DNA of 64,000 nucleotides. Source: Synechococcus sp. CC9605. Its GTDB lineage: Bacteria; Cyanobacteriota; Cyanobacteriia; PCC-6307; Cyanobiaceae. Of the stretch, positions 2,803 through 49,149 are shown one piece after another. Below the pieces are notes generated by a model. That model ran no database searches. It was not told the origin of the DNA and was given only the letters and a program-made list of their open reading frames with translations. The position numbers and the translations under genes are program-made. The stretch lies in contig NC_007516.1 of assembly GCF_000012625.1 (NCBI RefSeq), positions 1,426,001 to 1,490,000 on the forward strand, in the 5' to 3' direction. Each line of letters begins with the position of its first letter. Position 1 is the first letter of the stretch.

Positions 2803-3525
2803 CATATGGAGCCATTTGAGTAGCGGATTTCGCTGAATCCACTGGCTCTAATGGCTTATCTGTATCGCGTCCTGGTCTCATGCACCTAGCCGGGACGCGG
2901 ACCCATGTCAGCGGCAACTGCTGGGTCCCCTCTTTAGCGAATCCAGCCGTTCTCCCGAGGCCAATCGAGCTTTTAGGCAGTCCGTAACAGTCGCGACCAT
3001 TGCCTGCATCTACCGAAATTTTTGGCGGATCAGCACATCTTCAGAAATTTCCAGACAAGCCTGCTGAATGGCCTCATCATTGAGCCCTAAGTTGTCCGCG
3101 CACCAGATGTGGTGCTGAGCAGCACGGGGAGAGCGACCCTGGGGCTGGCAGACGAGTTTCCCCGTTGAGAGGGATCAATGGGGAACCCTCTCTCTTAAAG
3201 CTGTAGAAATTCAGTGCATCAGGCGCAAATCAGTGTGACGTGGCGAACGTGTTTATGCGGATATCGCATCGCTCGGGGAGGACTCGCTTCTCCTCGCGGT
3301 TCCGTGGCTCCACAACGTTAAGTCGCAGCTTGGTTGAAGGTCAGCCATCGCGGCAGAAGGAGCTGCTCAAAAACGCGGATCACACCGCTCACATCATTCG
3401 TTTTCATGAGACCTTGATGGACGAATCGTGAAAGAAAAATAATTACCTATTTGCGATATTTAAAGCTTTAAAATTAAACAAACAATTAAGTGCTTAAGTC
3501 GTTCCGTTAATTAAAGGAGGACAGT
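2803..3525. other. Gene-poor stretch with hairpin and gene remnant
   Basis: About 720 bases without a confident gene. A strong stem (GGACCCA pairing with TGGGTCC) lies at about 2899-2928 with no T-run. A start-less frame that looks coding lies at 3010-3174 minus. A basic 63-codon frame at 3240-3431 plus (GTG start) ends in a plausible helix but begins with Arg/Ser-rich junk-like sequence and is left uncalled. The last 90 bases are AT-rich and probably contain the promoter of the 3526 gene. Confidence 0.4.
3010..3174 (-). pseudogene. Remnant of a small soluble protein gene lacking a start
   Basis: On the minus strand the frame from 3174 down to TAG 3010-3012 reads like a real protein: GKLVCQPQGRSPRAA, then HHIWCADNLGLNDEAIQQ, then a helical end DVLIRQKFR. 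It is closed upstream by TGA (3175-3177), and no ATG, GTG or TTG lies before the conserved-looking part. Either the 5' end is lost or a frameshift separates it from the TTG at 3178. It could also be an unusual start. The reading is by composition only. Confidence 0.3.
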
Positions 3526-18120: not shown

Positions 18121-18291
18121 CTACTCCGCGCAAGTGCAGCCGCAGGAGCCACTGCCATGGCAGGGCTCGTGGTTTGGATGACCGGTGGCACAGGCCTCTG
18201 AACAGAAACTCTGGCCATCGCGAACAACAACCTGGGATGCCTGCACCTCACAGGTGCAACGCGGACAAGCACAGGGATTAGCAGGAGCCAT
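18121..18291 (-). CDS. smtA/bmtA: Bacterial metallothionein (SmtA/BmtA type), 56 aa
   Basis: Zinc-binding storage protein. Ten Cys and three His in the family order: CACPRCTCEV at the start (Cys7, 9, 12, 14), a middle CSEACATGHP (Cys30, Cys34, His38), then PCHGSGSCGCTCAE at the end (Cys44, His45, Cys50, 52, 54). This is the GATA/zinc-finger-like fold plus C-terminal Cys cluster known from SmtA. The length of 56 aa is typical. ATG 18291 to TAG 18121-18123. A Zur-like site lies about 90 bases upstream. It was not caught as a long ORF because of its size, but the Cys spacing is decisive. Confidence 0.93.
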   Translation of the reverse strand: MAPANPCACPRCTCEVQASQVVVRDGQSFCSEACATGHPNHEPCHGSGSCGCTCAE

Positions 18292-27243: not shown

Positions 27244-27753
27244 TCAGGCCTCAGCGTTTATTTGCTGAACCCAGGCCTGCAAACGATGATCTGTCAATTC
27301 CGACTCATTGTCTTCATCGATTGCAAGTCCGCAGAACTTACCATCAATAATGCTCTTTGAGTCATCATAGGTATACCCTTCTGTGGAAACCTTACCAATC
27401 AACTTGGCACCAGATTGAAGAAAAGCCGTATACAGTTCCTCCATGGCATCACAGAAAAAATCCGAATAACCGGAGGAGTCACCAAGACCTACGATTGCGA
27501 CTGATTTACCGGCAAAATCCTTGTCAGGAATTTCCTGAACCAGATCATCCCAGGCTGTTCCTGACCGTGCTTCATCAGCGCCTGTATTCCAGGTTGGAAC
27601 ACAACAAATTAACGACTCAGCTGCAACCAACTCATCAATTGAATCGATGTTGTCAACATCCTTCGCTTCTGTTCCAGGAAGAAGCTCCTTGAGTCGATCA
27701 GCCACATCCTCAGTTTTACCAGTAGATGTGGCAAAGAAAATAGTGAAAGTCAT
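27244..27753 (-). CDS. isiB: Long-chain flavodoxin
   Basis: FMN electron carrier that replaces ferredoxin during iron shortage. 169 aa from ATG 27753 (MTFTIFFATSTGKTEDVADR). The phosphate-binding loop FFATSTGKT, the FMN loops PTWNTGADE and GLGDSSGYSDFFCDAM, and the C-terminal long-chain insertion (YTYDDSKSIIDGKFCGLAID) are all in order. The longer open frame (27816) adds a non-conserved leader. A terminator lies 25 bases downstream. The upstream gene on the same strand is a 51-aa protein 127 bases away. Confidence 0.93.
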   Translation of the reverse strand: MTFTIFFATSTGKTEDVADRLKELLPGTEAKDVDNIDSIDELVAAESLICCVPTWNTGADEARSGTAWDDLVQEIPDKDFAGKSVAIVGLGDSSGYSDFFCDAMEELYTAFLQSGAKLIGKVSTEGYTYDDSKSIIDGKFCGLAIDEDNESELTDHRLQAWVQQINAEA

Positions 27754-27880
27754 GCAAAAGAAATCACCAATCAAGAATCGCAAGTCATCGCTCTCCCGAA
27801 TTAACGCTTGTTTCAACTGGAGGTGAAATCAGTTACATCCAGACACCTCATCCACCTCATTCTGCCAGACAAATTCTTAT

Positions 27881-28341: not shown

Positions 28342-28632
28342 TCAAGAAAGGTGATATGACAGCTTTGCTGCTGACAGGCAACGAGACAGCAATTCTTCTA
28401 ACAAACATTTCTGCATTGATTGAGAATCAAGAGATTGACTAATCACAGTCATAGATTCTTTTATGGCCAAACATCTGACATGGTAAAAAGATATTTCCGC
28501 AACGAGCCGATTTTTAAGCTTGGGATGCTGACAATGCTGTATTGAACGACTAGCACATTGAAGTCGCCGCCGCATCCATTCAGCCTCTCTGCAGAGATCG
28601 CCAAGAACACCAAAGGAATTCACGATCTTCAA
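28342..28632 (-). CDS. Helical Cys-containing hypothetical protein, 96 aa
   Basis: The TTG start at 28632 overlaps the stop of the Crp-family gene by 4 bases; a GTG nine bases on is an alternative. The product is helical with many Cys and Arg (LCREAEWMRRRLQCASRS, then SQSMQKCLLEELLSRCLSAA). It is coupled to the regulator, so it may be its partner or share its regulon. No domain is recognised. Confidence 0.5.
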   Translation of the reverse strand: MKIVNSFGVLGDLCREAEWMRRRLQCASRSIQHCQHPKLKNRLVAEISFYHVRCLAIKESMTVISQSLDSQSMQKCLLEELLSRCLSAAKLSYHLS

Positions 28633-29231
28633 AATTGGAGTGGTGAAGAATTAATGAGGTCAGGTGCAATGCGCATGGAGACATCACCAGACGACATGGC
28701 GATCATATCGGCTTGACGCCATTTCGATAGAAGGCGGGTTGTGGTCACCCGGGTAGCACCGATTAACTCACCAAAACGATCATGAGTTAGACGGAAGGGA
28801 AGCTGATAAGCATCGCTGCAACGAAGTCCAAGCCGGTTAACCAAGAGCGCCAGAAGAGCGTGAAGCCGCTGTTCCGCCTGACCCAGATGACGGACTCTTA
28901 GGAGCTGCAAGGTCCACTCATTGACTGCGTCGATTCCGAATTCGTCCGCGGAGACGGAGTCACGACGAAACTTCAGGGCCGTAAGTGCCTCGACACAAGC
29001 CCCGTCACTGCACATGCGATCGGTGCGAAGCCTGTCGCCTGACTGCAAAAACGCCAAAGTCATTCCCTCGGTTTCCTCACAAGGGCAATACACCCGGCAA
29101 ACACCTTCCAACACCTCAAGAACGGTGGCCTGATCGCGACCGGCAGGATCCAGCAGAACGGTCTGAAGCCTTGGCATCGACAAAGGAGCCGCAGGATCAT
29201 CCGGCAAGAACCGGTAGGAAGAGGTCGTCAC
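28629..29231 (-). CDS. Crp/Fnr-family transcription regulator, 200 aa
   Basis: The N-terminal effector domain (LPDDPAAPLSMPRLQTVLLD, then VLEVLEGVCRVYCPCEETEG) has a Cys-rich stretch (CPC, MCSDGAC) that might sense redox or metal. The C-terminal winged helix reads LTHDRFGELIGATRVTTTRL (~150-169), close to NtcA/Crp recognition helices. Length 200 aa is near normal. The upstream region carries an 8-bp inverted repeat (29312-29330) and related half-sites, so autoregulation or Fur control is possible. The position near isiB and isiA fits iron stress. Confidence 0.8.
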   Translation of the reverse strand: MTTSSYRFLPDDPAAPLSMPRLQTVLLDPAGRDQATVLEVLEGVCRVYCPCEETEGMTLAFLQSGDRLRTDRMCSDGACVEALTALKFRRDSVSADEFGIDAVNEWTLQLLRVRHLGQAEQRLHALLALLVNRLGLRCSDAYQLPFRLTHDRFGELIGATRVTTTRLLSKWRQADMIAMSSGDVSMRIAPDLINSSPLQF

Positions 29232-29677
29232 GAACTATCGCGATTGAGAATTAATCGCAAGAGTACAGACTCCTTGTCGATATTGCAAGTCATTCTCAAT
29301 AAGGCCCTCAGATTGAGATTCTTTCTCAATACGCTGCAGGCCAACTCCCTCCGTACTCAGAAGAAGTGAGCGGAGCAGCTGCGCATCGCCCTGAATTCGA
29401 AGCATCGGCTTGATGTGGTTATGGCCCAGTACACCTCGCTCACTGAGTGACCGATGGATCGCTTACAACGCTGAGGCGTTCTTATTGAGCGTTTGCGCTG
29501 TATTTCCTTGTCAAAACACAAGGAACGCAGCTTTTGTTGTGATCAGCCCCCCTGTGCTGCAATGGGAGAAGGCTCACCATTTGAGCGGTAAAGATACAAG
29601 CCAGTGAAAGAACGGCTGATGCTGCTGGGGTCCACGAAGGAGAACCACCACTTGGCTATTCGAGAGTTATAAGGTGT
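29232..29677. other. Promoter region of the Crp gene and gene-free stretch
   Basis: The left 110 bases hold three related half-sites: ATTGAGAATTAAT at 29245, CATTCTCAAT at 29291 and the full palindrome at 29312-29330. The rest has open frames up to 65 codons but no convincing protein. A short direct run GTTTGCGC near 29492 has no known meaning. Confidence 0.4.
29312..29330. promoter_or_regulatory. Palindromic Fur- or Crp-like site
   Basis: ATTGAGATTCTTTCTCAAT has 7-base arms (ATTGAGA / TCTCAAT) and a 5-base centre. It lies 81 bases before the start of the Crp-family gene, with two similar half-sites in between. Confidence 0.45.
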
Positions 29678-29869
29678 ATGAACAGCACATTGGTCAATCC
29701 CATCGACGAACCAACCCATAACCATCACTGGCTTGCCGAAACGGGTAACTGCAAGCGTTGGGAACTGGCAAGAAGCACTGGCTCCTCTTTTTCAGGGGAG
29801 GCGGTTCAGAGTTATGGCTTGCCACAACATTGGTGCGCCTCATTTAGTCACTGCCACTGGCTCATCTGA
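29678..29869 (+). CDS. Possible small protein at the head of the repeat array, 63 aa
   Basis: ATG 29678 gives MNSTLVNPIDEPTHNHHWLA followed by a Cys/Trp/His-rich end (PQHWCASFSHCHWLI). The second half is the first unit of the repeat array, and other units in plus frames show traces of the same motif (VQ, P-H-C, SFGNC). It could be the least decayed member of a small gene family that made the array. Confidence 0.35.
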   Translation: MNSTLVNPIDEPTHNHHWLAETGNCKRWELARSTGSSFSGEAVQSYGLPQHWCASFSHCHWLI

Positions 29870-31750
29870 ATTGCACTGAACCCCCAGCAGAAGTGAAAGT
29901 GACTGCGGAAGTTCAGTCACATGGATCTTCCATCCAATGGAGGGGCAATTTCCATTGGACGCTGTGTGTGTCTACGCTAATCCAGTCCGGCGTTGACATA
30001 GCAAGTGACGGCCTGACTCCTCTCCTCAACCGGGGGAGTCAGCACAGCGGTTTCAGTCGTTGAAACATTCAGCGAATCTTTTGGACGTCGCTTTCGCACC
30101 ATTGGAAGGGCGCTCAATACCTTCCGAGGAGATAGTATGAATGGAACGCAGAACAGCCTAATTACAATGAAGTAATGACCATTGGGCGCTGATAACACAA
30201 CTAACTCTCTTCTACATCCTAAGAGGGGAATCGGATCAGCGTTATCTGAGTGGTGGTGTGCAACATCTCCAGCCCGTGTCCGTATCGTCTCCATAGCCTC
30301 AATGGCATTGTGGCGCATCATCCGCTGCAGCTAAGACCACCGTGATCTAGGACTCCGTCTCATTTGGTCGTTGCAATAGCCTCATCTGACAAAGCGCAGC
30401 CCACGACAGCACCGATCGTGTCTTTGGGAGTTCCGTTGCTGGGGACTTCCATCCAATGGTTTCTCCAATGAACATTGGGCGCTGAAAACCGTACTGACTC
30501 TCCCTTTCGCAACCGGGAAGTCAGTTCAGCGTTTTGACTTCCCAAAACATTGTGACGACTCATTTGGCAACTGCTATCGCCTCATCTGTATCGCGGTGTG
30601 CACCCGACGCGGTGATTCTGTCTTAGGAGTCCACAAGACCTCCATCCAATGTTTTTTGTAGGGACCATTGGGCGCTGTCCAGAAAAGCTGACTCCCTTTC
30701 TTGGCGGACGGGGAGTCAGTTCAGCGTTTGACGGGTGACTTGACCTCGCAAAACAAAACCACTGAGATGCTTGAAGTAGTTGCTGCGATTGTTATCACAG
30801 CAGGTCTGGTTGCCGGAAATCTTTTGCTGTTTTCACCTTTGCGAATAGACAACAGGATTAAAGCTCCAGCACCTCCTGCTCAACCTGAGAACGCAGCTGG
30901 CCCGGTATTTAGGTGATCAGCTACGGACGTTGGCGCGACTTAATTCATCACTGCCATCTGCTTATAGGAACAGGCAAAAGCCATAGAAGGTGAGATTCTC
31001 ACTTTGGAAGCCCACTTCCATCCAATGGCCCCTGCATCACCATTGGCCTAAGTGTCAGCTAACTTCTTTTCTCACAGAGAAGGCAAGAACAGCCTTTACA
31101 ACGCCTAGGCAGAGAGCCACCGGCTGACATATCTTTTGAAGGGAAGAAGTCGGTTCAGCGTTTTGCCCTACAACCTTCCCAAGGCTCATTTGATTCACCG
31201 ATCAGCATCATCTGGAGCAGCAACATCCATATACCCATTCATTGTAATCACGGATGTTCCGTCGCAGGAAACCTCCAACCAATGGTGGGGGCAATCACCA
31301 TTGGGCTCTGATAACACCACTGACTCCCTTCTGACAATACGGGGAGTCAGATCAGCGTAATTGCATTGCAAAAATGCCAAAGCTAATTTGACGAGCCCAC
31401 TGAGATCATCTGGCGTGCAAATGAAATGGATTGAAGCTAGTCAAAGAAAGCCACGCGTAACATCTGCTTGAAGGGTTGTATTCAGGCCCAATTCAAGCTG
31501 GTCACACCACTAACTCCTCCCCAATGAGTAGACAGGGGGAGAGACCAAAGGCACAGAGGAGAAGAAAACCAGTTATAGATTCATTTGACAGATGAGATTA
31601 GATAGTTTGTACTCGCACTCTGAGAAAAACCAGCCAATATGCATTTGAAGGTTCTCGCAAGGCACCTTCATCCGATGGCTGATCCGGGTCATCGCGCTGG
31701 GGTTACAACTGGCTCCTCTACTCAACCAGGGGAGTCAGTCCAGTTGCTTA
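29778..31750. repeat. Array of decayed ~200-nt hairpin repeats
   Basis: At least eight related units. The left hairpin CCAATGG...CCATTGG occurs near 29934-29958, 30453-30478, 30646-30671, 31022-31046 and 31279-31304 (right arm only at 30179). It is followed by GGCGCTG, and then a second hairpin of the form CTGACTCC...GGGAGTCAG at 30014-30041, 30494-30525, 30688-30719, 31320-31350 and 31708-31739. Shared flanks include TCAGCGTTTTGAC and TCCATCCAATG. Units differ by indels and substitutions. Partial protein-like reading exists on both strands. Neither a CRISPR nor a known RNA family fits. Confidence 0.75.
30767..30916 (+). CDS. Small single-helix membrane protein, 49 aa
   Basis: ATG 30767 opens a transmembrane segment (MLEVVAAIVITAGLVAGNLL) followed by a Pro/Ala-rich tail (KAPAPPAQPENAAGPVFR). 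It sits inside the repeat array between units and is not itself repeated. Composition is clearly protein-like. No family is recognised. Confidence 0.6.
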   Translation: MLEVVAAIVITAGLVAGNLLLFSPLRIDNRIKAPAPPAQPENAAGPVFR

Positions 31751-31774
31751 CTCCCAGAAATACACTGAATTATT

Positions 31775-31975
31775 ATGGCCAAAAGCAAAGGCGTTCGCAT
31801 CATTGTCACACTCGAATGCACCGAATGCAGAACAGCAACTGCTGCTGAAAAACGCAGTCCTGGAGTCTCTCGCTATACAACAACTAAAAACCGAAGAAAC
31901 AATCTTGAAAGGCTCGAACTGATGAAATTCTGCCCACAACTCAACAGAATGACTCTTCATCGCGAAATAAAATAG
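31775..31975 (+). CDS. rpmG-like: Ribosomal protein L33 paralogue lacking one zinc Cys
   Basis: 66 aa. The L33 pattern is unmistakable: [14 protein letters not shown], then [20 protein letters not shown] and [19 protein letters not shown]. In ordinary cyanobacterial L33 the zinc ribbon has CTEC and FCPxC; here the second pair reads FCPQLN, so one of four Cys is missing. It stands alone, without rpsR (S18), which usually follows rpmG in cyanobacteria. It may be a stand-in copy for low zinc or a decaying duplicate. No Zur-like site was seen before it. Confidence 0.85.
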
Positions 31976-32257
31976 AAGAAAAATATAATGCTTGCAAAAC
32001 AGCACACACCAAATAATCTCGTCTCAAATAAACTTTGGCTATCATTGTTTTTACCAAAGCACGGGCGAGCGCATGCCTTGAGCAATTCATTTTGTGCAAA
32101 AAACCAACAACGACAACCGCATATTGGCCAACGCATGAAACACATCACTGAGTCATCACTGATCAACACTAATCAATCAATACAAACATCGATCAGTAGA
32201 ATTTAGGACACAGCCTAATTCAGCAGCAGCTACTTTACGCAAAGCAGCGATCTATTC
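31976..32257. other. Gene-free AT-rich stretch
   Basis: A 72-codon plus frame from 31988 (MLAKQHTPNNLVSNKL) is open but has low-complexity Ser/Asn/Gln composition and no convincing domain. No hairpin or palindrome was noticed. Confidence 0.3.
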
Positions 32258-32464
32258 TTGACTAACATTGAAGCCTTCGCACACATCATTGACCTCGCTA
32301 ACAGAACGACTGACACGGCCACTTATGAGTATTTAATGAGAGAAGCGCAGGAAATCATGCTCGACAAAAACAAGGAAGATATAGATTATTGTGATTTTAG
32401 ACAATTGGTAGAGGAGCGGCTCGCGAATCAAACACTCAAAACAAAAGAGCAAGGCTGCACATAA
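32258..32464 (+). CDS. Small acidic helical protein, 68 aa
   Basis: The TTG start at 32258 reads MTNIEAFAHIIDLANRTTDT, followed by a helical middle (YLMREAQEIMLDKNKEDIDY) and FRQLVEERLANQTLK. The helical, balanced composition argues for a real gene despite the weak start. It lies alone in AT-rich DNA. No family is recognised. Confidence 0.5.
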   Translation: MTNIEAFAHIIDLANRTTDTATYEYLMREAQEIMLDKNKEDIDYCDFRQLVEERLANQTLKTKEQGCT

Positions 32465-32940
32465 TTGCAGAATGACTAGCACCAATTATTATCATTTTAG
32501 CAGAAAATAGTCAAGACCAAGATATTTAGAATCGCGCCGATTTATAAACAAAAAATAATACTCAAAAAATACACTTATATCAGGCAATCAAGGTAGCATA
32601 ATGCTTGCAGATCAATCCCCCTCAATATAATTACAAACCTCAGGCTTTTTTTAATTAGCATCACTTACACGGGAGTGCATCATTTCAAACGTAGTACTAC
32701 GACATCTGAGCGACATGGTCCTATTCACAACACGAAAATGAGATTGGGCAGTTCACTCCAGCCTGAGCTGTTCAAACAATGATTCTGATCATGTCAGTCT
32801 CATTGGGCGCCATCTGGCTCTTCTTCCCTCCAGGTTCAAGAGCCAGAGTGTCGCTTCAACCAAACCAGAACAATTGATTGGTCTTGTCTTTGCCCATCGA
32901 TAACTGGCGTTGATGTTTTCTACTTCTCACCATCAACACA
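32465..32940. other. AT-rich stretch ending in a repeat-like hairpin
   Basis: The first 300 bases are AT-rich with poly-A tracts and no gene. A 32-codon membrane-like frame starts at about 32779 (MILIMSVSLGAIWLFFPPG) and is not called. At 32801-32850, CATTGGGCGC is followed by the hairpin TCTGGCTCTT/AAGAGCCAGA and then GTCGCTTCAAC. This follows the layout of the repeat array 1 kb upstream and is probably a distant unit. Confidence 0.4.
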
Positions 32941-33126
32941 ATGTCTCAAAAAACATCCCGGTTTTTCAAACTTGATGCATCGGTATTAGAAGCGCAAATG
33001 CGCTGCGGAACGGAATGGCCAATAGGCCTTGTTGATGCAATTGCAGAAGCCCATCGAACCACAGTTGAAAATGTCATTGAGCGTCAACGCGTTTTAAGGT
33101 CAACGGACCCACACGATCATAAATAA
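32941..33126 (+). CDS. Small hypothetical protein, 61 aa
   Basis: ATG 32941 encodes MSQKTSRFFKLDASVLEAQM, then WPIGLVDAIAEAHRTTVENV and a basic end ERQRVLRSTDP. It is soluble and helical. It precedes the broken small membrane gene and the phosphatase gene on the same strand. No family is recognised. Confidence 0.6.
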   Translation: MSQKTSRFFKLDASVLEAQMRCGTEWPIGLVDAIAEAHRTTVENVIERQRVLRSTDPHDHK

Positions 33127-33159
33127 AACGTTTATTTTTGAGATTATTTTAGTTTTCCC

Positions 33160-33351
33160 ATGTCCTTATCAGGATTCGAAATTTCTGTAGGTTGAATCAC
33201 ATCAATTGCACTAACAAGCAGCTTGGTTCTGTTTCTCTACAAAGCATTTGGCGAAAAACAAATGGGCATGAGCAAATCTAAAGAAGGAGTGACAGCCAAA
33301 GCAGCGCCTTCAACTCCTAAACAAGGAACAACAAAACCCTGGCTTTACTGA
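33160..33351 (+). pseudogene. Small membrane-protein gene interrupted by TGA at codon 12
   Basis: From ATG 33160 the frame reads MSLSGFEISVG, then TGA (33193-33195). It continues in the same frame as ITSIALTSSLVLFLYKAFGE, then KQMGMSKSKEGVTAKAAPST and a clean end GTTKPWLY at TGA 33349-33351. Read with Trp at codon 12 it is a natural 63-aa protein with one transmembrane helix and a basic tail. A single base change (TGG to TGA) explains it. A shorter product from the in-frame TTG in SSLVLF is possible. Confidence 0.6.
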
Positions 33352-33382
33352 AAGCAAAGTAAGCACTTCAACCAACAATCTC

Positions 33383-34081
33383 ATGTCTAAAATTTTTATT
33401 CCATTGTTCACTGCATTGCTTTTGAGTGCATGCGGACTCAATAGTGAATCGGGTGTCTCCTCTAATGATGGTGATGCTAAAACCACAGCGGACCAAAATA
33501 CCAAAACACCAAGCATTGGTCTGAGTTCAGAACCGAGTATTGGGAAATCAGTGTTGCTGGCTTCACTCAAGGATGGAGGATATGTCATTTATTTTCGTCA
33601 TGCAACGACGGTGAAGGATTACGCAGACCAAGCTGATCCTCTGATGAGCCTTAATGATTGCAGTTCACAGCGAAAGCTGAGCACTCAGGGCATCAAGGAA
33701 TCCTACGAAATTGGCATGGCATTTGCTGCAAAGGAGATCCCAGTCGGTGAAATTATTGTTAGTGAGTATTGCCGGTCCTGGAAAACAGCAAACCTTGCAT
33801 TTGGAGAATGGACCCAAAAAGATTCCCGTTTAAACTTTTTACCTTATGAGGATTACACCAAAAGTAATGTTGAACTGATGAAAAAGAATGTCATGCCTTT
33901 ATTAACGCGCCCACCTCTACCAGGAACCAACAAAGTCATTATCGGACATGATGATCCTTTTGAAGCCGTGACAGGAATTTATCCTGAACCGCAAGGAATC
34001 GCATACATCCTTCAGCCCGATGGGGGAAAAAGCTTCAAGATCATCGATAGTGTGTTGCCGTCTGAGTGGGCAACACTCTGA
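33383..34081 (+). CDS. Histidine-phosphatase-superfamily lipoprotein, 232 aa
   Basis: A lipoprotein signal with lipobox LLSAC (Cys17) is followed by a Ser/Asp/Lys-rich linker (~18-55) and a phosphatase domain. The catalytic RH(A) is in IYFRHATTVKD (Arg72, His73), with Arg130 in SEYCRSWKTA and His188 in VIIGHDDPF. Members hydrolyse phosphate esters at the envelope. This would be periplasmic-facing and membrane-tethered. Its place between iron-stress genes suggests phosphate or metal-chelate processing, but the substrate cannot be read off. Confidence 0.82.
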   Translation: MSKIFIPLFTALLLSACGLNSESGVSSNDGDAKTTADQNTKTPSIGLSSEPSIGKSVLLASLKDGGYVIYFRHATTVKDYADQADPLMSLNDCSSQRKLSTQGIKESYEIGMAFAAKEIPVGEIIVSEYCRSWKTANLAFGEWTQKDSRLNFLPYEDYTKSNVELMKKNVMPLLTRPPLPGTNKVIIGHDDPFEAVTGIYPEPQGIAYILQPDGGKSFKIIDSVLPSEWATL

Positions 34082-34642: not shown

Positions 34643-35680
34643 ATGCAGTCTTACGGAAGTTCATCAGTCACTTATGACTGGTGGGCTGGAAATGCAGGAG
34701 TCGCGAAGCGCAGCGGTTCTTTCATTGCAGCCCACGCTGCCCATGCAGGTTTAATCATGTTTTGGGCAGGTGCATTCACCTTGTTTGAGTTGGCCCGTTA
34801 TGACGGAACACTGCCAATGGGAGAACAAGGGCTGATTTTGATTCCACATCTCGCCGGCCTTGGCTTCGGCGTAGGGGAAAGCTCTGTAATCGTTGACCAA
34901 CAACCCCTCATCGCGATCGCAGCATTCCATCTGGTTTCGTCTGCTGTTCTTGGAGCAGCTGGAATCTGGCATACACTTCGAGCTCCCAGGGACCTTTCAG
35001 AGGCTGAAGGCCGCGCCCAAAAGTTTCATTTTGAATGGAGTGATGACAAAAAGCTCACGTTCATCCTGGGGCATCACCTGATTTTTCTCGGCCTGGGTGC
35101 CATTGCCTTCGTTGAATGGGCAAAACGACATGGAATTTACGACAGCGCCATCGGAGCTGTTCGACGGGTTGAACCAAATATTGACCTCGGTATGGTGTGG
35201 AGTTATCAGGCTAATTTTCTTTCCATCAGCAGTCTTGAAGACGTGGTGGGTGGCCATGCTGTTTTGGCCTTCATTCTCACGATTGGTGGTGTTTGGCATA
35301 TCATCTCTAGGCCTTTCGGACCCTTCAAAAAGGTCTTGATCTACAACGGCGAATCGATCCTGTCTTACTCGCTTGCCAGTGTAGCTCTGATGGGATTTGT
35401 GACCGCCATTTGGTGTGCTCAAAACACAACAATTTACCCCGTTGAGTTGTATGGCGATCCGTTGAAATTGAATTTCGCTTTCTCTCCCTATTTCAGCGAC
35501 GCAACTGCTCTTGAGGGTGGTGCCCACTCAGCCCGAGCTTGGCTGGCCAATACGCACTTTTACCTTGCATTCTTTTTCCTGCAAGGACATTTTTGGCATG
35601 CCTTGCGCGGCATGGGCTTTAACTTTAAGCGCGTTTCTGAGGCGCTTGACAACATGGGAAATTCCAAGGTCAGTGCCTGA
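34643..35680 (+). CDS. isiA/pcb: IsiA/Pcb-type chlorophyll-binding antenna protein
   Basis: 345 aa, six transmembrane helices, homologous to the CP43 antenna core but lacking its large lumenal loop. Helix I contains SFIAAHAAHAGLIMFWAG with chlorophyll-ligand His, later helices contain IAAFHLVSSAVLGAAGIWHT, FILGHHLIFLGLGAIAFV and GGHAVLAFILTIGGVWHI, and the C-terminal helix has NTHFYLAFFFLQGHFWHAL. It forms chlorophyll rings around photosystem I under iron stress or serves as a general antenna; context with isiB and idiA favours IsiA. Terminator follows. Confidence 0.93.
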   Translation: MQSYGSSSVTYDWWAGNAGVAKRSGSFIAAHAAHAGLIMFWAGAFTLFELARYDGTLPMGEQGLILIPHLAGLGFGVGESSVIVDQQPLIAIAAFHLVSSAVLGAAGIWHTLRAPRDLSEAEGRAQKFHFEWSDDKKLTFILGHHLIFLGLGAIAFVEWAKRHGIYDSAIGAVRRVEPNIDLGMVWSYQANFLSISSLEDVVGGHAVLAFILTIGGVWHIISRPFGPFKKVLIYNGESILSYSLASVALMGFVTAIWCAQNTTIYPVELYGDPLKLNFAFSPYFSDATALEGGAHSARAWLANTHFYLAFFFLQGHFWHALRGMGFNFKRVSEALDNMGNSKVSA

Positions 35681-38165: not shown

Positions 38166-38189
38166 AAGTCGATCCTCGTCGGTTTGATC

Positions 38190-38305
38190 TGGCGGGCGTT
38201 CTGACTGACGTGGGCGGAGGGCCGACGTTTCACAGCTGCGGGACAGCGGCAGATTTTCACTGCTCTTTCCCCGTTTCCTTCAGCGGCTGTTCCCCGCTGA
38301 AACCA
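38190..38305 (-). promoter_or_regulatory. Cobalamin riboswitch upstream of hupE
   Basis: Read on the minus strand, the core elements follow in order: GGAACAGCCGCTGAAGGAAA, CGGGGAAAGAGC, GTGAAAATCTGCCGCTGTCC, CGCAGCTGTGAAA and, nearest the gene, CAGAACGCCCGCC. These match the adenosylcobalamin-riboswitch core (the B12 box with GCTGTCCCGCAGCTGTGAA). It ends about 25 bases before hupE. High cobalamin should shut off expression. Confidence 0.88.
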
Positions 38306-38349
38306 GCACCCCACCCTACCGGCGCCTGGCCGTCCCGCCTGACCAACAA

Positions 38350-48941: not shown

Positions 48942-48974
48942 GGGAGACGATCCTCGTCGGAAGGGTTGAAAACT

Positions 48975-49084
48975 TGGCGGGCGTTCTGACTTGCTCTTTG
49001 GGTGAGCTTTACAGCTGCGGGACAGTGACGGATTTTCGCCGCTCTTTCCCCGTTTCCTTCAGCGGCTGTTCCCCACTGAAACCA
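48975..49084 (-). promoter_or_regulatory. Cobalamin riboswitch upstream of the His/Asp-rich protein
   Basis: Minus strand core in order: TTTCAGTGGGGAACAGCC, GCTGAAGGAAACGGGGAAA, GCGGCGAAAATCCGTCACT, GTCCCGCAGCTGTAAAGCT and AGAACGCCCGCC. It is closely similar to the hupE riboswitch 10.8 kb away, so the pair probably arose by duplication and responds to the same ligand. It ends about 35 bases before the ATG. Confidence 0.88.
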
Positions 49085-49149
49085 AGATGGAAGGTTGGTC
49101 GAGTTACATCACGGGAAATCAATGGATGTCCATTGATTTCAACAGCCGG

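Follow-up and report, generated by a model that had tools for sequence, protein, structure and literature searches.

The stretch of DNA analysed here (‘the window’) covers 64,000 nt, corresponding to positions 1426001-1490000 of the 2,510,659-bp single-contig genome of Synechococcus sp. CC9605. It contains an array of repeated units, seven of them on the plus strand, each of some 165-220 nt and together spanning 29840-31746, with two weaker units besides; the array is bounded by a divergently oriented gene for a Crp-family regulator (28629-29231, minus strand; HTH_Crp_2, 6e-09) and by a gene for a protein resembling ribosomal protein L33 (31775-31975, plus strand). An earlier note on this DNA had described hairpin repeats in the region, and the repeats and both hairpins that it recorded are present where it put them. 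Its view that the array is not CRISPR-like is also borne out: the units are diverged, and unit starts lie anywhere from 183 to 697 nt apart (60 adjacent pairs).

In an unfiltered scan, all seven plus-strand units match a covariance model of the family at E <= 8.5e-11, with matches starting (listed from best to worst) at 30413, 31239, 30613, 29894, 31634, 30130 and 30993. These values arise by construction, because six of the seven array units were among the sequences used to build the model; independent support comes from the copies found elsewhere in the CC9605 genome (blastn down to 1.5e-193) and in other genomes. Unit 1 (29840-30050; 95.8 bits) carries the two direct repeats of the family at 29840 and 29862, a -10-like hexamer, GAAAGT, at 29895-29900 and a predicted RNA start at 29907, as well as an extra module of about 45 nt ahead of its terminal hairpin. 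Unit 2 (30077-30242; 57.5 bits; fold z -1.95) is decayed, with degenerate repeats and broken first hairpins, and has a -10-like GATAGT at 30131. Three units are intact: unit 3 (30360-30532; 108.8 bits; fold z -5.06; repeats at 30360 and 30382, -10-like GATCGT at 30414, predicted RNA 30426-30531), unit 4 (30560-30727; 97.8 bits; fold z -3.33; repeats at 30560 and 30582, -10-like GATTCT at 30614, predicted RNA 30626-30726) and unit 6 (31186-31358; 108.1 bits; fold z -3.81; repeats at 31186 and 31208, -10-like CATTGT at 31240, predicted RNA 31252-31357). Unit 5 (30940-31161; 38.6 bits; -10-like GATTCT at 30994) has degenerate repeats and an insertion in the region of its terminal hairpin. Unit 7, the final unit ahead of the L33-like gene (31581-31746; 66.5 bits; fold z -3.44), retains repeat 1 at 31581 next to a degenerate repeat 2, followed by a -10-like CAATAT at 31635 and a predicted RNA at 31647-31745. 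The description of the whole array as ‘decayed’ thus fits the match at 30130, which folds poorly, and does not fit those at 30413 and 31239, which fold well (z of -5.1 and -3.8).

The two weaker plus-strand units lie at either side of this series. One, truncated or diverged, occupies the start of the array (29679-29816; 19.7 bits, E 2.3e-5), and the other is a distant, diverged unit at 32733-32858 (22.5 bits, E 3.5e-6); the latter corresponds to the further copy suspected earlier at 32801-32850, which is detectable, if weak, and similar weak matches are found 3' of the array at loci L092, L098, L099 and L107. The window also holds a single dispersed unit on the minus strand (1402-1576; 86.8 bits), with a -10-like CATGGT at 1521 and a predicted RNA start at 1509.

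Each unit folds into three hairpins (H1, H2 and H3) with strong covariation. Of the two hairpins joined by a GGCGCTG linker that had been noted before, both exist, and the second proves to be the core of an extended hairpin, whose outer stem forms where the GGCGCTG linker pairs with a trailing TCAGCG; a further covarying hairpin (GGAAG/CTTCC or GGAG/CTCC) lies upstream of the pair. The units do align with one another above background. Over 104 units, standard pairs make up 94.0% of the paired cells, 226 cells are changed on both sides (against 58.4 in shuffles), double changes occur in 20 of 29 pairs, and none of 500 shuffles reaches the observed value on any of five measures of covariation, in an alignment that was fitted to the model structure and with shuffle controls that ignore the relatedness of the copies. 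Some units contain an additional hairpin module of about 45 nt, always at the same place after CGCTG. Inspection by eye had suggested a fourth helix ahead of H1; it was rejected, since its best stem is paired at 0.72 where 0.70 is expected.

A second alignment, made with MAFFT from sequence alone, comprised 97 units (the 104 model matches minus the 7 weakest), or 72 after removal of near-duplicates. The stems of these 72 units hold 1749 Watson-Crick, 211 G-U, 47 A-C and 131 other cells, compared with 1620, 268, 111 and 139 expected from column composition alone; the G-U count is 155 when one pair with a G-T consensus is excluded. The observed ratio of G-U to A-C (211 to 47) is 4.5, against 2.4 from column composition, which explains part of the strand asymmetry, and it owes its height to A-C being the most depleted class. 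Because an A-C cell of the unit strand reads as G-U on its complement, this depletion favours the unit strand as the folded molecule, which would most simply be an RNA. The unit strand also folds better than its complement in seven of eight units, whether judged by energy or by z-score, the exception being a different unit for each. Traces of related peptides that had been pointed out on both strands do not hold up as coding: each of the six frames is interrupted by a stop in 51-94 of the 97 units, predicted RNA lengths fall in all three remainders modulo 3, and no conserved open frame runs across the units on either strand. A protein-coding family is thereby rejected, and with it the earlier option of a decayed small-gene family for the units themselves, real small genes (L33-like, DUF3104 and others) nonetheless lying between or after them.

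Upstream of H1 is a promoter-like block, consisting of two direct repeats, TCATYTG, and then a hexamer, NANNNT, just before the hairpin. Both repeats (with up to two mismatches each) are found in 82 of 97 units; in 80 of these 82 they are spaced by 22 nt, and in 78 the distance from repeat 2 to H1 is 44-45 nt, unlike the distance from H1 to H2, which varies from 16 to 29 nt. The hexamer has its A in all 72 non-redundant units and its T in 96% of them. These are the two most constant positions of the bacterial -10 element (TANNNT in cyanobacteria). Activators often bind near -64 and -41, and the repeats centre near those positions if the start is placed at the G that opens H1. A further set of 28 units (36 matches minus one duplicate and seven that were weak or on the opposite strand) has the A in 28 of 28, the T in 26 of 28 (with two gaps) and G as the predicted first RNA base in 24, in matches to a model that itself includes the -10 positions. 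The base frequencies of the units show no -35 box, which fits the outcome of a generic sigma-70 scan, where no promoter and no excess of terminators was reported in the array. That scan result, together with the poor U tract (the 8-nt tail after H3 averages 3.7 T), led to rejection of an intrinsic terminator for each unit. The repeats are degenerate in units 2 and 5 and partly so in unit 7 (repeat 2). The divergent Crp-family regulator, whose gene is likewise found 5' of the array in L092, L093, L095, L107 and L108, is a candidate activator of the units.

The distribution of the family was established with a first profile built from the units of the window and then with R1, a covariance model trained on 22 units of the CC9605 genome. 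In that genome R1 detects 24 clear copies at E < 1e-7: the seven of the window array, another eleven split among three groups in the vicinity of a second flavodoxin-like gene (locus L009), one pair and four singles. Of 34 genomes of the genus, 20 match at E <= 0.01 (0 to 25 matches in a genome), so the repeat does occur in relatives. Among 300 genomes sampled across the wider family to which the genus belongs, 15 match at 1e-4, all from the same genus (one of 59 genera), and the repeat was not found in the 58 other genera under stricter filters, which lose weak matches. No Rfam 15 family matches the array at its gathering threshold, and the only Rfam match at E <= 5 within 29200-33400 is a weak one to a snoRNA model at 29354-29448, outside the array. 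A phage origin was rejected, as no match was found in phage records or, by exact pattern, in viral contigs. A pattern scan of genome contigs returned 17 stretches, 10 of them from Synechococcus; the other seven (Hyphomonadaceae, two Bacteroidetes/Bacteroidota, Prevotella, two Endozoicomonas and Betaproteobacteria) were taken as chance. No description of the repeat was found in the open-licence full text that was searched.

Comparison between genomes bears on how the units are inherited and on which part of them is conserved. Unit 7, which precedes the L33-like gene, is present in eight genomes. Its 12 most diverged comparisons pair G022 or G030 with one of the remaining six genomes; over these, the predicted RNA has an identity of 0.85, against 0.52 for the upstream flank and 0.35 for the sequence following H3, while the pS of the L33 gene is 0.73-0.86 in the eight of these pairs that could be compared. 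The conserved block therefore starts and stops where the model places the RNA, a contrast which indicates, for the one unit so tested, that selection acts on the predicted RNA; the promoter region of this unit is not conserved outside its motifs. For 30 of 36 units at the window locus and 30 of 40 at the second array locus, the nearest relative is found at the same locus in another genome, so the arrays are mainly inherited rather than freshly spread. All 60 pairs of neighbouring units no more than 650 nt apart share one orientation. Mosaic copies also occur: 23 pairs of units (not independent of one another) have a clear change point, which falls at ACCATTGGGCGCTGA in nine (three of these sharing one truncated unit, L009_10809) and near H1 in five, the remainder being spread along the unit. 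Since the change points peak in conserved stretches, the exchange looks like homologous recombination. In four genomes (G003, G012, G021 and G027), the homology that covers the single unit at 1402-1576 begins 27-86 nt ahead of repeat 1 and ends right after the last hairpin, and the DNA ahead of the point where homology begins is missing in G003 and inserted in the other three. Homology that stops at the unit edges in this way makes the ends of units common borders of islands, and no clean empty site was recognised in the compared loci.

Several small genes accompany the units. A small membrane-protein-like ORF (MLEVVAAIVITAGLV; 30767-30916, plus strand) sits between units 4 and 5, its stop codon 23 nt from repeat 1 of unit 5; all 10 pairwise comparisons of five copies give a pN lower than the pS. 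The L33-like gene directly after unit 7 (Pfam PF00471, 2.3e-20) has pN of 0.01-0.07 against pS of 0.13-0.86 among six intact copies, which marks strong purifying selection in six genomes; its frame is intact in six of nine places, while in L107 it is split, in L108 it is shortened and L179 gives a poor match, and unit 7 is kept in G027 and G028 (L107 and L108) despite the broken or shortened frame. L33 usually has a second Cys pair; the encoded protein keeps the first (CTEC) and has CPQL at the second position. Genes that recur downstream of a unit, on its strand, belong to a 75-aa family without a Pfam match (10 loci), the L33-like family (8 loci and the window), a tiny membrane protein (7 loci and the window, counting weak matches of E up to 0.5), DUF3104 (7 loci), a second small membrane protein, MLEVV (4 loci and the window), and MKRSL and metallothionein (4 loci each); these loci are not independent, because many of them are the two array loci recurring from genome to genome. 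Metallothionein genes mostly stand without a unit just upstream (42 of 48 matches, with six having one by coordinates), as do DUF3104 genes (a unit in only 7 loci, against 123 matches), so the unit is not an obligatory leader of either, and the idea of a leader with one fixed function was dropped. In the window itself, a metallothionein gene at 18136-18273 (minus strand; PF02069) has no unit, and at L013:8616-8870 (minus strand) a metallothionein frame with one internal TGA lies in an island of shuffled small-gene modules.

DUF1651 genes, a family linked to the response to cyanophage infection (PMC5490813), often converge on units, and some units have no recurrent gene after them. Between units 2 and 3, the stretch 30247-30346 (minus strand) looks by eye like what is left of the C-terminus of a DUF1651 protein. 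A gene named by eye as flavodoxin-like lies close to each of the two large arrays (window 27244-27816 and L009:11222-11737, both minus strand). Next to the second array, tyrosine-recombinase-like and primase-like genes at L009:1640-6138 resemble, again by eye, an integrated mobile element; NCBIfam yielded no family for the tyrosine-recombinase-like gene.

Taken together, the covariation, the -10-like element at a fixed distance and the conservation of unit 7 lend good support to one of the options raised in the earlier note, an array of structured RNAs. We consider it probable (roughly 0.67) that the units are tandemly arrayed genes for small structured RNAs of a new family, most likely acting in trans. 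Each intact unit would then be a complete small RNA gene, in which an activator presumably binds the two TCATYTG repeats, RNA polymerase uses the NANNNT element and transcription begins at the G that opens H1. The product, some 100-155 nt long, would be an RNA that forms three hairpins, namely H1 (GGAAG/CTTCC), H2 (CCAATGG/CCATTGG) and H3 (CGCTG/CAGCG on the outside and CTGACTCC/GGGAGTCAG on the inside, the 5' arm carrying a bulge). Tandem copies might raise the dose or supply sibling RNAs with different loops, and these RNAs would most likely serve as stress-linked regulators encoded in genomic islands; the hairpin loops vary among paralogs, so that no common ‘seed’ for pairing with targets is visible. 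When there is a small gene downstream, the transcript may continue into it, and some copies may thus serve as its leader. The small RNA reading is weakened by the poor U tract after H3 and by units 2 and 5, which are partly decayed.

If the units were instead primarily cis-acting, each would combine a promoter with a structured 5' leader for a small stress gene, and tandem units lacking a gene would be what remains after gene loss. The position of units directly upstream of recurrent small-gene families on the same strand, and the persistence of unit 7 beside the L33-like gene in eight genomes, would suit such a role; many of the supporting loci are, however, the two array loci over again, the L33 frame is broken or shortened in places where unit 7 was kept, the stretch from H3 to L33 is not conserved, most members of the metallothionein and DUF3104 families do without a unit, and downstream of several units there is either a converging DUF1651 gene or no gene of a recurrent family. 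This is the chief rival account, and as a general one it is unlikely. We give still less credence to a mobile repeat of the MITE or BOX type, whose hairpins would serve its spreading and for which any RNA function would be secondary. The dispersal of the family, its sharp borders, the loss of homology at H3 around the single unit (with DNA inserted or missing just before it), the optional extra hairpin module and the mosaic copies are all of the kind that a mobile element might leave, but inspection by eye of 19 units with their flanks revealed no inverted ends or target duplications, the array units best match the same locus elsewhere, and conservation confined to the predicted RNA in unit 7 would not be expected of a MITE.

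Recombination sites of an integron-like cassette array were considered as well, given the co-oriented units with small genes between them, the islands of shuffled modules and the conservation in many units of AAC near the left end and GTT at the right end. Against this, no integron integrase (TIGR02249) scores over the cut-off in the CC9605 genome, and one of 34 genomes has such a gene, on a 19-kb contig whose first 17 kb hold no unit; the change points are spread along the unit and peak in conserved stretches, as homologous recombination would produce; and several single units have no AAC end. In a reading by eye for an attC-type fold, no pairing of AAC and GTT ends was seen. With the integrase model, the change-point analysis and the comparison of borders all unsupportive, this explanation was set aside as very improbable. 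The one true integron integrase (G033:C36:6792-7724, at L159 and L163; 442 bits) may be contamination.

Several known systems resemble the putative small RNA genes in part. Repeats of the BOX/ERIC type are modular, dispersed hairpin repeats in intergenic DNA; the units share these properties and are set apart by their promoter-like block, by their arrangement in tandem and by being conserved at orthologous positions. Cyano-2 (RF01702) is likewise a multi-copy structured RNA of the CC9605 genome, with six places there, five of them over the gathering score and none at a unit; identity with it was rejected, as the places and the sequence are different and no TCATYTG pair occurs in the 110 nt upstream of the six copies. 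One of the five lies in the window at 3118-3312 (plus strand), and some copies are within a few kb of DUF3104 or DUF1651 genes. Yfr103 of marine picocyanobacteria, as described in PMC5069720, is a further multi-copy structured RNA of CC9605 with a conserved upstream motif, 290-328 nt long, with seven paralogs in this genome and homologs in Prochlorococcus; judged by that description, identity is unlikely, the units having a predicted RNA of about 100-155 nt, 24 copies and no match in the 58 other genera sampled. As a guess, Cyano-2 may be the Yfr103 of the literature. A close parallel in layout is NsiR1 of Nostoc sp. PCC 7120, reported in PMC9045159 as 12 tandem copies, each with its own promoter. 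Like the units (60 of 60 adjacent pairs), these form a co-oriented cyanobacterial array of sibling small RNA genes, partly diverged and with a conserved gene adjoining, in which every copy has its own promoter and a common regulatory motif (PMC9045159), features that the units match at the level of sequence. NsiR1 differs in its length of about 60 nt, its DIF1 motif and its place upstream of hetF, and it has been shown to be transcribed and to act on mRNAs (PMC9045159), whereas the units have a longer predicted RNA with three hairpins, carry other motifs and occur in several arrays and as singles.

A more far-reaching possibility, which we put forward tentatively and regard as doubtful, is that the unit is a portable cassette, an activator-dependent promoter joined to a three-hairpin RNA, that has been multiplied both as sibling small RNA genes and as ready-made leaders for unrelated small stress genes (the L33 paralog, metallothionein, DUF3104 and tiny membrane proteins). 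Were this so, the islands of marine Synechococcus would constitute one regulon coordinated by RNA. The family adds a multi-copy structured RNA, absent from Rfam and with predicted starts, to an ecologically important ocean phototroph, and it gives hypervariable islands of iron, metal and phage-response genes a shared, putative regulatory element that can be tested. An in-situ primary transcriptome mapped to Synechococcus CC9605 has been published (PMC5069720), so the key prediction should be open to checking from existing data. The predicted RNA starts fall at genome positions 1455907, 1456143, 1456426, 1456626, 1457006, 1457252 and 1457647 on the plus strand and 1427509 on the minus strand (window position + 1426000); the published study mapped 58 ncRNA start sites to CC9605 and describes its sampling site as probably not limited by iron.

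The window contains other RNAs as well. IsrR, an antisense RNA to pcbD reported for CC9605 (PMC5069720), is found at 35036-35207 (minus strand), opposite an isiA/pcb-like gene at 34643-35680, and two cobalamin riboswitches lie at 38174-38322 and 48959-49101, both on the minus strand.
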